Shown piece by piece: positions 21,153 through 27,064 of a stretch of 36,508 nucleotides of DNA (position 1 is the stretch's first letter; every line of letters starts with the position of its first letter). The stretch covers positions 1 to 36,508 of the forward strand of contig JASHQB010000120.1 of assembly GCA_030037775.1 (NCBI GenBank). The letters run 5' to 3'. Made by a program: the position numbers and the translations under genes. The DNA is from Candidatus Acidiferrales bacterium. GTDB taxonomy: Bacteria > Acidobacteriota > Terriglobia > Acidiferrales > UBA7541. Under the pieces are notes generated by a model. That model searched no databases, was not told the origin of the DNA, and worked only from the letters and a program-made list of their open reading frames with translations.

Positions 21153-21854
21153 ATGCAAAGAGAGATGAGCGCGCGGGAAAAAGCAGTTGTGCTGCTGAGC
21201 GGAGGGATGGATTCGTGCGTGACCACGGCGATTGCCAATGAAACGCATCTTTTGGCATTGTTGCACGCGAGTTATGGCCAGCGGACGGAGAGCCGGGAGC
21301 GGCGGGCTTTTGAGGAAATCGCCGAGTTCTACGGAGTGCGAGAGAAACTCGTGGCGAGACTCGACGCCTTAGGAGAAATCGGCGGTTCGGCGCTGACAGA
21401 CGAGGGCATTCGGATACCGGAGAACCTGAGGGGAGGGTCCACGGACATTCCGGTCACGTATGTGCCATTTCGCAACGCACATTTTCTGTCGGTGGCGGTC
21501 AGTTGGGCGGAAGTGATCGGCGCAACGGCGATTTTCATCGGCGCAGTGTCGGAGGACAGTTCCGGATATCCGGACTGCCGGCCGGAGTATTACCATGTGT
21601 TTTCCGAGTTGGTGCGAGTCGGAACGCGGCCGGAGACACGAATCGAGATCTGCACGCCAGTGATTCACATGCGGAAGAGCGAAATCGTCCGGCGAGGAAT
21701 GGAATTGAAAGCGCCGCTAGAGCACAGCTGGTCCTGTTATCAAGGGCAAGAGGAAGCGTGCGGTGTGTGCGACAGTTGTCGGTTGCGCCTGCGGGCGTTC
21801 GCGGAGGCAGGATATGCAGACCCTATCGCCTACCGGGCGCCAGTTGCGAGATAA
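21153..21854 (+). CDS. queC: 7-cyano-7-deazaguanine synthase
   Basis: 233 aa; AVVLLSGGMDSCVTTAIA, SYGQRTESRE, HSWSCYQG...CGVCDSCRLRLRAF. Confidence 0.96.
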   Translation: MQREMSAREKAVVLLSGGMDSCVTTAIANETHLLALLHASYGQRTESRERRAFEEIAEFYGVREKLVARLDALGEIGGSALTDEGIRIPENLRGGSTDIPVTYVPFRNAHFLSVAVSWAEVIGATAIFIGAVSEDSSGYPDCRPEYYHVFSELVRVGTRPETRIEICTPVIHMRKSEIVRRGMELKAPLEHSWSCYQGQEEACGVCDSCRLRLRAFAEAGYADPIAYRAPVAR

Positions 21855-21888
21855 TAACCCAGAGTATCCAAAAGTAGGAGGAGTTCTC

Positions 21889-23046
21889 ATGAAGACATTG
21901 CTTTCGAGACTGGGACTTCCGGCGCTGCTGCTGGCGACGGCGTGTATGCTGGCGCCGGTGGCGCCAGCGCAGCAGTTGACGAGGCTTTCCGGTACTGTGT
22001 TGGATTTTGACGCGAAGCCGTATCCGGGCATGGTCATCACAATCACCAACAAAGGTAACGCGACAAAGTACACGGTGACGACGGACAAGGACGGAAAGTT
22101 CGTGCAAAACGGGCTTCCTATCGGAACCTACGACATCAATTTCAAGAAGGACAACATCGACTACACGGAGACGATGCAGATCAATGGAAGCATGGCTGAG
22201 ACGGGCGCAATTTTGAATGTGAACTTCAAGGATATCGCTGCGAAAACGGGCTATGACGTGAATGCCGCAAAGAAACGGGAAGAGGCGGTGAATCAGTTCA
22301 AACAGATGAAGGCGCATTTCGATAACGGCGTTCACGCCATGGATGATGCCAGCACAGCGAAGCAGCAATTGAAGACAGCTTCCGCGGATCAAAAAAACGC
22401 CCTTCAGGTCAGTATGAGCACTGATTATCAAACGGCCATCAGTGAGTTCGAACAAGCGCAGCAGGGCGCGCCGGACAAAGATCCGAACTTGCCGCTGATT
22501 CTGGGCGACCTGGGAGCGGCCTACGACGGAGCGGGCAAGTACGACCAGGCGATCGATACGTATCAAAAAGCGATAGCGATAAAACCGACGGCGGCACTGT
22601 ACCAATCATTGGGAACGGATTTGGCACGAGCGGGGAAAATGGATGATGCCGGGGCTGCTTGTGATAAAGCGGCAACAGTTGACCCGACGAACAAGAACGT
22701 CGGAGTGATCTGCTATACGAATATGGGCATCGTTCTGTCGAATGCCGGGAAAATGGACGAAGCGGTCGCGCCGCTGCAGAAGGCAACCCAACTCGATCCC
22801 AACGGCGCGGACGCGTGGTTTTTACTCGGCAACGCACTGGTCGCCGGGATCAGCACGAAGAAAGAAGGGACCAAGGACGTCTACGTGATTCCTCCGGGGA
22901 CGGAGGAAGCCTACAAGAAATACCTCGAATTGCAGCCAAACGGCCCATTCGCGGGACAGGCTAAGGAATCGCTGGACGCCGTGATGCAAATGAGCGGTGA
23001 AAAAGTGACCAACGAAATCAAAAACAAGAAACCCGGGACCCTGTGA
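21889..23046 (+). CDS. Secreted Cna/carboxypeptidase-regulatory-like plus TPR protein
   Basis: Start ATG 21889 after an AGGAGG-like site; MKTLLSRLGLPALLLATACMLAPVAPAQQ signal peptide; LSGTVLDFDAKPYPGMVITITNKGNATKYTVTTDKDGKFVQNGLPIGTYDI beta-sandwich; C-terminal TPRs (LGAAYDGAGKYDQAIDTYQKAIAI...). Confidence 0.87.
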   Translation: MKTLLSRLGLPALLLATACMLAPVAPAQQLTRLSGTVLDFDAKPYPGMVITITNKGNATKYTVTTDKDGKFVQNGLPIGTYDINFKKDNIDYTETMQINGSMAETGAILNVNFKDIAAKTGYDVNAAKKREEAVNQFKQMKAHFDNGVHAMDDASTAKQQLKTASADQKNALQVSMSTDYQTAISEFEQAQQGAPDKDPNLPLILGDLGAAYDGAGKYDQAIDTYQKAIAIKPTAALYQSLGTDLARAGKMDDAGAACDKAATVDPTNKNVGVICYTNMGIVLSNAGKMDEAVAPLQKATQLDPNGADAWFLLGNALVAGISTKKEGTKDVYVIPPGTEEAYKKYLELQPNGPFAGQAKESLDAVMQMSGEKVTNEIKNKKPGTL

Positions 23047-23179: not shown

Positions 23180-23216
23180 TTCTGCGCAACTCGGATACGC
23201 TCAACAGGGGGGAGAA

Positions 23217-25883
23217 GTGGCACAGGCAGCATCAACATACTTGGGAGAACAGCGGCGGCGAAGCACCCGCCTCGAGCAAGCTTCACCAGTGATCATTCGC
23301 GGCGTGGATTTGCTGGGCCAGCCATTTGAAGAGCGGACGGCGGCGCAGAATCTGAGCTTCCACGGCTGTCGATACCAGTCAAAGCACCATCTTCCCAAAA
23401 ACACGTGGGTCACGCTCGAAGTGCCTTCCGGTGAGTCTCGCGGGGAGGCCATGTGCCTGCGGGCCCGGGTGGCGTGGATCGAGAGACCGCGAACGCTGCG
23501 AGATCTGTTTCAGGTCGGCGTCGAGTTGGAAAAGGGCAAGAACGTATGGGGCGTGACGTTTCCGCCGAGCGACTGGAATGGCGGACCTTTGGCCGGCGCG
23601 GCTGTGGCCACTATGAGCGTCTCAACAGAAGCGGGCTCGCGCGCGGGGCAGGAGTCCCCCGACGCTGATCAAGAGACCTCCCTGGAAGTTTACTTGCAGA
23701 TGGCGCTGGCCCAAACGAACCGCGATTTCGCCCTTGCCGAGGACGAGCCGGAAAGCAGCACGCTGCTGGGGCAATTGCGCCAGGAATTCCTCGCGGAAGC
23801 GAGGAAGATGATTGCCGAAGTGCGCACTGTCGCGGATGAAGCGGCAAGGGAGAGAGCCAGCCAATTGTGCGATGACTTTGAGAACGCGCAAGAAGCGAGC
23901 GCCGAGGCGTTCTACAAGAAATGGATGGAGGAGTTCGAGCGTGGGAAAGCAAGTGCCAAAGAAGAGATCGCGTCGGCGCTGGCGGAAAATGTAGCCGCGC
24001 AAATCGCCAGTTTTCAGGCGGAAGTGCGTGGCGCGCTCACGAGCGAATGGGCGGAAAAACTGAGTCATGCACAAGTCGAGCGCTCGCAGTGGAAGACAGA
24101 GCTACAAGCATTGCGCGGAGAGGTGCGGGCAGGCTTCGACGAGACCGTAAGACGAAACGAAGAGCGATGGAATGAAGAGCTCCTGGAGATGCAGAGGGAG
24201 ATGGAGTCTTTGCGGGCGGCCAACGTGGCCGCGGCAGCGGCCGATACGGAAAAGGGCTCAATCGATACAGCAGAGTCGGCGAGAACCCAATTGCTCGCGC
24301 AGACCGATACGGCGCAGACGCAGTGGAATGAGTTGCTCGAATCATCGCTGGACGGCGCGGCGCAGCGTTTGAACGAGAAGCTGACCAATGCTTCACAAGA
24401 ACTGCTGCACCGGGCCGAGCAGGAAATGGCGAAGCGGCTGGCCGAGTTGCACAGGGAATCGGGACTGATCACGGAGACAAGCCGCGCAGCGCTGGACGAA
24501 TTGAAGAACGTGCTCGAATCAGAAGTGGCGCAGGCGAAAACTTCGCTAGCGGAGATCGAGCAGACAGCGGGGCGGTTTTCGGAGTATTCGCGGCAATTGG
24601 AAGCAGCAAGCCAGGACAGCTTGAACGAGTTGCGGCAGAGGCTGGAGTCGAGCGTCGCGCAGCAATGCGCACTGCTAGACAAGCGTGCCACGGAGCTCGA
24701 AGGTCAGTTTAGCAAGCGGACGGGGGTTCTGCTCGAACAGATGAGCCGAGAGACGGTGGCGCGTAGTGCCGAGGAAATTGACGCGAAGGTGGCGTCGGGG
24801 CTCGAGTGCGCAACTAAGGCGGCGGAAGAGCTCTCCGCACGCGAGGAGCAGGCGGAAGGAATTCTGCGGATTCATCGAGAGAGATTGCGGCAAGTTTCCG
24901 AACAAGTGCAGCGGGAGAGCGCCGCGCATTTGGCTTCAGGTCTGGCGGCATGGCAAAAAGACTTGGAAGGCACTCGCGCTCAGGCACTGGACCAATGGAA
25001 CACGGACCTTGAGGCGAATGGAGCGCGAGCGACTGAGGAGGCGTCAGCGGCGCTCGCGAAGGACACGGCTAGACAGTTGGTGGAGGCGGATGCGCAGCTT
25101 CTCGTGCAGGCAGAGCAGGTGATCGATACCGCGCAGGAGCGAATGCACAAAGGGTTGCATGCGATCGCCGGGAAATTCCGCAGCGAACTTGGGGAGATCG
25201 AAGCAACCGAGCTGGCCAGCACGCGGGAGAAGGTTGCGTTGGCAGCGCAGGATCAGGCTGACTCGGCCAAGAACGAGTTTGCCAAGGCGGCGGAAGAGGC
25301 GGCTTCCAGGTTTGGCGAAGTGATCAAAGAAACGACGGCGAGTGCGCTGCAGGAGTTCCGAGCGGCAAGCGAAGCAAAGGCGCAGGAGGGCCAGACGCGA
25401 CTGGCGTCCGCAGCGGAGAACGCGCTGCAAGGAGTTCAAAGCCACACGCAGAGTTCATTCGAGCACTTTCAGGAGCAGCTCGCCATCAAGATGGAGCAGG
25501 CGTTGAGGCATGCGGGCGAAACTCTGGCGCGTCAGTTTGAGACGACGCTCGAAAGGTTCCGCGCGCAAGGTGAGGCTGGGTTGGAGGAGTGGTCGGCCAG
25601 GCAGGCATCGCTGAACGAGCAAGCGCTCGAGAAGCATGACACGCAGTTGCAGGCGGCGAGCGGTTCGTGGGTGGAATCGGCTCTGGAACGGCTCGAGACA
25701 CTGAGCGAGGAGCGCGTCCATTCGGCAGTCCGCGCGACGGAGAGTAAAGTGCGCGAGGCGTGCGCCGACCTCTTCGATAGTCTGGCGCAAGCGATGAGGA
25801 AGCAGTTGCAAGGGACGCTGGAGATGCGCCACACGGCGCCCAGCGGGGAAACCAACCCGCAAGAACACCGCGCGTCCGCTTAG
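23217..25883 (+). CDS. PilZ-domain protein with very long Ala/Glu-rich coiled-coil region
   Basis: 888 aa; GTG start with upstream GGGGGGAGAAG; N-terminal RRRSTR (RxxxR) and NLSFHG ([DN]xSxxG) PilZ motifs; about 650-700 aa of low-aromatic, charged, Ala/Glu/Gln-rich helical sequence. Confidence 0.85.
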   Translation: MAQAASTYLGEQRRRSTRLEQASPVIIRGVDLLGQPFEERTAAQNLSFHGCRYQSKHHLPKNTWVTLEVPSGESRGEAMCLRARVAWIERPRTLRDLFQVGVELEKGKNVWGVTFPPSDWNGGPLAGAAVATMSVSTEAGSRAGQESPDADQETSLEVYLQMALAQTNRDFALAEDEPESSTLLGQLRQEFLAEARKMIAEVRTVADEAARERASQLCDDFENAQEASAEAFYKKWMEEFERGKASAKEEIASALAENVAAQIASFQAEVRGALTSEWAEKLSHAQVERSQWKTELQALRGEVRAGFDETVRRNEERWNEELLEMQREMESLRAANVAAAAADTEKGSIDTAESARTQLLAQTDTAQTQWNELLESSLDGAAQRLNEKLTNASQELLHRAEQEMAKRLAELHRESGLITETSRAALDELKNVLESEVAQAKTSLAEIEQTAGRFSEYSRQLEAASQDSLNELRQRLESSVAQQCALLDKRATELEGQFSKRTGVLLEQMSRETVARSAEEIDAKVASGLECATKAAEELSAREEQAEGILRIHRERLRQVSEQVQRESAAHLASGLAAWQKDLEGTRAQALDQWNTDLEANGARATEEASAALAKDTARQLVEADAQLLVQAEQVIDTAQERMHKGLHAIAGKFRSELGEIEATELASTREKVALAAQDQADSAKNEFAKAAEEAASRFGEVIKETTASALQEFRAASEAKAQEGQTRLASAAENALQGVQSHTQSSFEHFQEQLAIKMEQALRHAGETLARQFETTLERFRAQGEAGLEEWSARQASLNEQALEKHDTQLQAASGSWVESALERLETLSEERVHSAVRATESKVREACADLFDSLAQAMRKQLQGTLEMRHTAPSGETNPQEHRASA

Positions 25884-25945: not shown

Positions 25946-27064
25946 CTATGAGCGTCCGATAATTTCGTGAAGCGATTCGCAGACGTAGTCCACTTGCTCG
26001 GTGGTCAACTCCGGGAATAAGGGCAGTGCCAGCACTTGCTGGCAAGCGCGCTCGGCATGAGGAAAATCGCCGGGCTTGTAGCCTAGGTAGGCGAGCGCTT
26101 TTTGAAGGTGAAGAGGTAAAGGGTAATGCACTGCAGTGCCGATTCCCCAATTCTTGAGCTCTGCTTGGACAGCATCGCGGTTCTCGACGTAAATCACAAA
26201 GAGATGGTAGGCGCAGTCGTCGCGAGGGTCGTCGTGTGGAAGCCTCAGGGCCAGTCCGTCTAGTTTCTCGCGATAGCGTTGAGAGATGGCTTTGCGGCGA
26301 GCAGACCAGACGTCGAGATGACGCAGCTTGATGCGCAGCACTGCGCCTTGAAAACCCTCCATCCGATAGTTGTAGCCGATGAAGTCGTGGAAATAGCGGC
26401 GAAGTTCGCCGTGGCTGCGTGCGGAGCGGCAATAGTGGGCGATGCGATCGTCGTTCGTCACGAGCGCTCCCGCTTCGCCATAAGCGCCAAGATTTTTCGA
26501 AGGATAGAAGCTGAATGCGCCGCAGATGCCGAGAGCGCCGACGCGTCGTCCGCGGAAGCGGGCGCCGTGAGCCTGGGCGGCATCTTCAATCAACGAGAGC
26601 TTGTGCGCGTCGGCAAGTTTCTGGAAGGCCTGCATGTCGACGGGACGCCCGTAAAGATGAACGGGGAGAATGGCCTTGGTGCGCGGAGTGATGGCCGATT
26701 CGGCGAGGCGTGGGTCAAGATTTGCCGTGCGCGGATCGATGTCGGCGAAGACAATTTTCGCGCCGGTGTAGGCAATCGCTTCCGCGGTAGCGATGAAGGT
26801 ATTCGGAGTCGTGATGACTTCATCGCCAGAGCCTACGCCGGCGGCCAAGAGTGCGAGATGCAGAGCGCTGGTGCCTGAATTGAGAGCGATGCAGTGTTTG
26901 GCCTCGCAATAGGAGGCGAACTCCTGCTCGAAAGAAGCGACCTCGTCGCCGAGGCTGAAGGCAGCGTTGCGGCAAGTGCGGTCGATGGCTTCGAGAATCT
27001 CCGCCCGCAGCGCGGCGTACTGTTCTCTTAGGTCGTAGTAGGGCACCGCGGCGATCGTTTTCAC
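25946..27064 (-). CDS. DegT/DnrJ/EryC1/StrS family aminotransferase
   Basis: 372 aa; YYDLREQYAALRAEILEAIDR, IALNSGTSALHLALLAAGVGSGDEVITTPNTFIATAEAI, SFYPSKNLGAYGEAGALVTND (PLP lysine). Confidence 0.95.
   Translation of the reverse strand: MKTIAAVPYYDLREQYAALRAEILEAIDRTCRNAAFSLGDEVASFEQEFASYCEAKHCIALNSGTSALHLALLAAGVGSGDEVITTPNTFIATAEAIAYTGAKIVFADIDPRTANLDPRLAESAITPRTKAILPVHLYGRPVDMQAFQKLADAHKLSLIEDAAQAHGARFRGRRVGALGICGAFSFYPSKNLGAYGEAGALVTNDDRIAHYCRSARSHGELRRYFHDFIGYNYRMEGFQGAVLRIKLRHLDVWSARRKAISQRYREKLDGLALRLPHDDPRDDCAYHLFVIYVENRDAVQAELKNWGIGTAVHYPLPLHLQKALAYLGYKPGDFPHAERACQQVLALPLFPELTTEQVDYVCESLHEIIGRS

Follow-up and report, generated by a model that had tools for sequence, protein, structure and literature searches.

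A PilZ-domain protein of Candidatus Acidiferrales with a helical rod of about 700 residues and a predicted right-handed supercoil

Most known outputs of PilZ domains are enzymatic, brake the flagellum or act through small adaptors, and to our knowledge few long cytoplasmic right-handed coiled coils have been characterised. Among characterised PilZ proteins that have a self-assembling helix, the closest is XCC6012 of Xanthomonas, a tetrameric protein in which short heptad helices are inserted in the PilZ domain, and which has neither intact c-di-GMP motifs nor reliable c-di-GMP binding (PMC3131395). The handedness of coiled coils follows from the spacing of their hydrophobic residues: periods above 3.63 give a right-handed supercoil, which is slight at 11/3 and strong at 15/4 (PMC4786415).

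We analysed a gene for a PilZ protein of another build in a stretch of 36,508 nucleotides (the window) from a Candidatus Acidiferrales bacterium (contig JASHQB010000120.1). The gene and its parts are as follows.

23206..23214, + strand: Shine-Dalgarno-like AGGGGGGAG, just 5' of the GTG start of the PilZ-rod gene, read from the sequence
23217..25883, + strand: PilZ-rod protein, 888 aa, GTG start, from the open reading frame and full-length homologues
23253..23588, + strand: PilZ domain, residues ~13-124, with R14xxxR18 and N45xSxxG50, from Pfam PF07238, a profile match to PilZ domains of the same genome and the alignment
23589..23681, + strand: variable, low-confidence linker, residues ~125-155, of low conservation and with pLDDT about 25
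23682..25820, + strand: helical rod, residues ~156-868, with hydrophobic period 3.735 and a predicted right-handed supercoil, from composition, periodicity and AlphaFold2
25599..25820, + strand: C-terminal rod end, residues ~795-868, a better conserved part of the rod in the alignment

The open reading frame at 23217-25883 is a real gene, as its clear ribosome-binding site and its full-length homologues show. Searched as a whole, the 888-aa protein gave no match in Pfam or NCBIfam, but its N-terminal 130 residues scanned alone match PilZ (PF07238) at 29.0 bits against a cut-off of 22.5; the missed match is probably due to the composition correction in a long, biased protein. PilZ matches are also found in 33 of the 39 family members (E<=0.1), and a profile of the domain aligns with 14 further PilZ domains from this genome at 98.6% (hhalign, E=6e-16). 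By sequence, the N-terminal region is a genuine PilZ domain, as the initial annotation had proposed from the motifs RRRSTR and NLSFHG, both present exactly as it described them. Searched against the PDB by sequence, the domain profile found no PilZ relative. The AlphaFold2 model of the domain, built on an alignment of two sequences, has four strands and a pLDDT of 42.5; with this low-confidence model Foldseek places VCA0042 with c-di-GMP first and lists BcsA, PA0012 and the PilZ domain of CesA, none at E<=0.001. In the genome as a whole there are 17 matches to PilZ and about a dozen to GGDEF.

The two c-di-GMP motifs of the domain differ in their conservation. The arginines of RxxxR, present as R14xxxR18, are invariant across the family alignment, as are R15 and G50, whereas [DN]xSxxG, present in the window protein as NLSFHG (N45xSxxG50), is intact in four of the five members of its genus (the exception, in genome G001, reads SLSFHG) and is off consensus at residue 1, residue 3 or both in the other full-length relatives. 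In the window copy the two motifs are canonical, which makes binding of c-di-GMP plausible. For the family as a whole c-di-GMP control is doubtful and would not be an obvious conserved property, since most relatives carry a degenerate second motif. This degeneracy (to IINCHG or a similar sequence in the commoner paralogue described below and in family f6) speaks for a different reading, that the PilZ domain is insensitive to c-di-GMP and mediates protein interactions at the head of a structural rod, for which XCC6012 offers a precedent as a coiled-coil PilZ protein that does not reliably bind c-di-GMP. Given the invariant RxxxR arginines and the canonical NxSxxG in the window protein itself, we regard such a non-sensing head as rather unlikely.

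Beyond the PilZ domain the protein contains no YcgR or synthase domain that we could find, and its output part is the rod. The residues after the domain are enriched in Ala, Glu, Leu, Gln, Ser and Arg; Lys is scarce and the net charge is -48. No transmembrane-like segment is seen in the sequence, in agreement with the initial annotation. Only one Pro occurs within residues 161-858, and AlphaFold2 models residues 156-868 as almost entirely helix with short breaks, at low to moderate confidence (mean pLDDT 52.8), as expected with an alignment of only two sequences. At 1.5 Å per residue, a helix of ~700 residues would be about 100 nm long. Among relatives the sequence of the rod evolves fast, while helicity, periodicity and approximate length are retained.

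The large hydrophobic residues of the rod recur with a strict period. Over residues 161-858 the spectrum peaks at 3.735 with a power of 41.6, and the best of 500 shuffles reached about 12; with full-length homologues in many genomes as well, chance is excluded. All 39 relatives in its own family peak between 3.68 and 3.78, and in their mean autocorrelation lag 15 stands highest, followed by 11 and 4, with negative values at lags 14 and 28. Taken over the whole rod, the family-average power is 16.5 at 3.735, 7.6 at 11/3 and 1.4 at 3.63. The hydrophobic stripe is narrow, with 57-63% large hydrophobics and few charges at its centre.

A classical heptad coiled coil was considered and ruled out by the peak at 3.735, since the power of the window rod near 3.5 reaches at most 2.3. 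What had been called a giant coiled coil from the sequence is thus retained as a long helical rod but not as a heptad one, for which SMC of the same genome, with a period of 3.505, served as the control. The observed period lies within the range of 3.67-3.75 for hendecad or pentadecad right-handed coiled coils and, because the repeat falls between hendecads and pentadecads, a right-handed supercoil of this type is predicted for the rod. The phase of the stripe shifts between residues about 380 and 580 in the window protein, which may mark a stutter or hinge in the rod. A search of the rod for long-range charge periodicity, of the kind that staggered filament assembly would give, returned no significant signal, and filament formation, one suggestion of the initial annotation, found no positive support in the analysis.

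The strongest rival for the rod is an amphipathic helix of apolipoprotein or phasin type, lying on a membrane or storage granule to which the PilZ domain would control recruitment, because the best matches of the family profile among solved structures are apolipoproteins: ApoA-IV (E=9e-12), ApoE, ApoA-I and apolipophorin-III. The weakly hydrophobic 11/15-residue repeats would also suit it. Apolipoprotein repeats are expected to have a period of 11/3, and a stripe of period 3.735, with hardly any power at 3.63, coils around the helix and so fits a supercoil better than a flat surface. The net charge, the few Lys and the near absence of Pro also speak against a helix lying flat, no Pfam family of this kind is matched, and the window sequence searched singly gives no match to apolipoproteins; the profile score may reflect composition and periodicity only. 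We consider a lipid-surface helix improbable.

Homologues (E<=0.001) were found in 47 of the 61 related genomes, some of them PilZ-only matches and many full-length, in frames of about 800-1400 aa; the genera g9 and g12 gave no match. None was found at E<=1e-14 in 246 other genomes of the phylum, a sample apparently without families f1 and f6. A collinear relative with 60-62% identity occurs in a Candidatus Acidiferrales bacterium MAG. In a tree of the PilZ domains, the window gene falls in a well-supported clade of 12 rows, ten of its own type and two of related medium-length proteins, nested within family f1; the window gene is a derived paralogue (paralogue A). The commoner paralogue B is present in nearly all f1 genera, between dnaX-ybaB-recR and genes for an MsbA-type ABC protein and LpxB (gene names that we read from the sequences). 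It carries an internal block, AEWYxKKAQTxMQ...FASELDHYSRSYVEH, which is strongly conserved in f1 and unrecognisable in the window protein, and which may be a partner site. All matches to this block at E<=1e-6 lie in family f1, those that could be traced are PilZ-rod loci, and no other head domain was seen on it. Many paralogue-B proteins (L041-L070) have a short motif in the linker before the rod, roughly (N/K)V(R/H)VLPxP, which is absent from the window protein. Directly downstream of a paralogue-B gene, at L051:5919-7740 (- strand), lie three proteins without a Pfam match, which recur at this place in many genomes.

The same design of PilZ domain, linker and rod is found in a second family of the same class (f6), whose rods span about 400-1000 residues and have periods of 3.70-3.79. 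Several f6 rods contain internal tandem repeats of 38, 57 or 72 residues. At L125:5885-9409 (- strand), a 1174-aa PilZ rod has 57-residue tandem repeats that are near-identical (38/40 residues at offset 57 and 40/40 at 171), which suggests that this rod was lengthened recently. Another PilZ protein, of 371 aa at L136:5728-6843 (- strand), combines the domain with a DnaJ-like domain (HPD motif, recognised by eye) and TPR-like repeats.

Paralogue A has a conserved locus, QueC-TPR-PilZrod-DegT, which is kept in the genera g1, g3 and g8. In the window, the two neighbours of the PilZ-rod gene are as follows.

21889..23046, + strand: exported CarboxypepD_reg and TPR protein, the conserved upstream neighbour of paralogue A; an internal ATG is the likely true start
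25946..27064, - strand: DegT/DnrJ/EryC1 aminotransferase, a conserved convergent neighbour

The listed reading frame of the upstream neighbour (21763-23046, + strand) has a start that overlaps QueC, and the protein read from the internal ATG at 21889 begins with a stretch resembling a signal peptide or lipobox, followed by CarboxypepD_reg and TPR.

The initial annotation had linked the protein to exopolysaccharide (EPS) genes. Within the genus of the window, glycosyltransferase and Wzy-Wza-Wzc genes do lie downstream of QueC-TPR-PilZrod-DegT, in the three genomes with enough contig (the window and two more), and this proximity could indicate that the rod organises the adjacent Wzy-Wza-Wzc machine. 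However, a genome of another genus (G006, g3) retains the QueC-TPR-PilZrod-DegT core with none of these EPS genes over more than 20 kb downstream, and the commoner paralogue B has a different locus, next to dnaX-ybaB-recR. The conserved neighbourhood thus extends over three genera and the EPS genes over one; an EPS role rests on gene proximity within that genus, and we judge it very unlikely. In G001 and G004 a cassette of four genes is inserted in the EPS stretch. At L035:2616-6698 and L033:13337-17619, the glycosyltransferase and Wzy genes are separated by a run of PqqD-like, transglutaminase-like, asparagine-synthase and HPr-kinase-like genes; from its gene content this run looks like a lasso-peptide biosynthesis cassette, and it is absent at the corresponding place in the window genome.

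The explanation that we prefer, and to which we would give about an even chance, is that the protein is a PilZ-headed, right-handed homo-oligomeric rod which acts as a c-di-GMP-responsive spacer or scaffold. It would be cytoplasmic and soluble, with a PilZ head bearing both canonical motifs, a flexible linker and a nearly unbroken amphipathic helix of ~700 residues. We infer that several chains would associate along the narrow hydrophobic stripe (period 3.73) into a right-handed coiled coil, and the rod would be a mechanical spacer, an idea suggested by the fast divergence of its sequence while helicity, period and rough length persist. Binding of c-di-GMP to the PilZ heads may then change the cargo of the heads or the attachment site of the rod, so that the whole would work as a messenger-controlled tether or scaffold. 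A wider proposal, that a class-restricted family of ~100-nm c-di-GMP-controlled right-handed rods forms a new cytoskeleton-like spacer or scaffold in Acidobacteriota, is offered tentatively, as the less probable of the two. Through a PilZ head carried by a very long right-handed rod, c-di-GMP would gain a purely structural output. The tight period of 3.73 across highly divergent sequences also provides a natural series for the study of right-handed coiled coils. In the open literature searched, neither a characterised homologue nor a PilZ domain on a long right-handed rod was found.

Among known systems, YcgR/VCA0042, BcsA and stand-alone PilZ proteins share with the head of the protein the PilZ profile, RxxxR and [DN]xSxxG. 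The rod shares a periodicity of 11/3 to 15/4 with right-handed coiled coils such as the pentadecad stalk of YadA and the hendecad b subunit of ATP synthase, and ATP synthase b' is among the matches of the rod-family profile to solved structures; these are, however, stalks that sit on the surface or are anchored in a membrane and have no nucleotide-sensor head, and no homology to the window rod was established. With apolipoproteins A-IV, E and A-I it shares amphipathic helical repeats of 11-residue type (profile E down to 9e-12), but the window protein is bacterial, has a period of 3.735 and a PilZ head and almost lacks Pro, and the likeness is probably convergent. The cytoplasmic tail of ZorA in Zorya defence is likewise a long cytoplasmic helical bundle, with a weak profile match (E=0.001), whereas ZorA is a MotA-like membrane motor subunit and the window protein has no transmembrane segment, and homology is not established here either (PMC11890865). 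XCC6012 has in common with the window protein the pairing of a PilZ domain with a self-assembling helix, the assembly being predicted for the latter. The two differ in that the rod of the window protein is C-terminal, about 700 residues long and non-heptad, and in that its motifs are intact.
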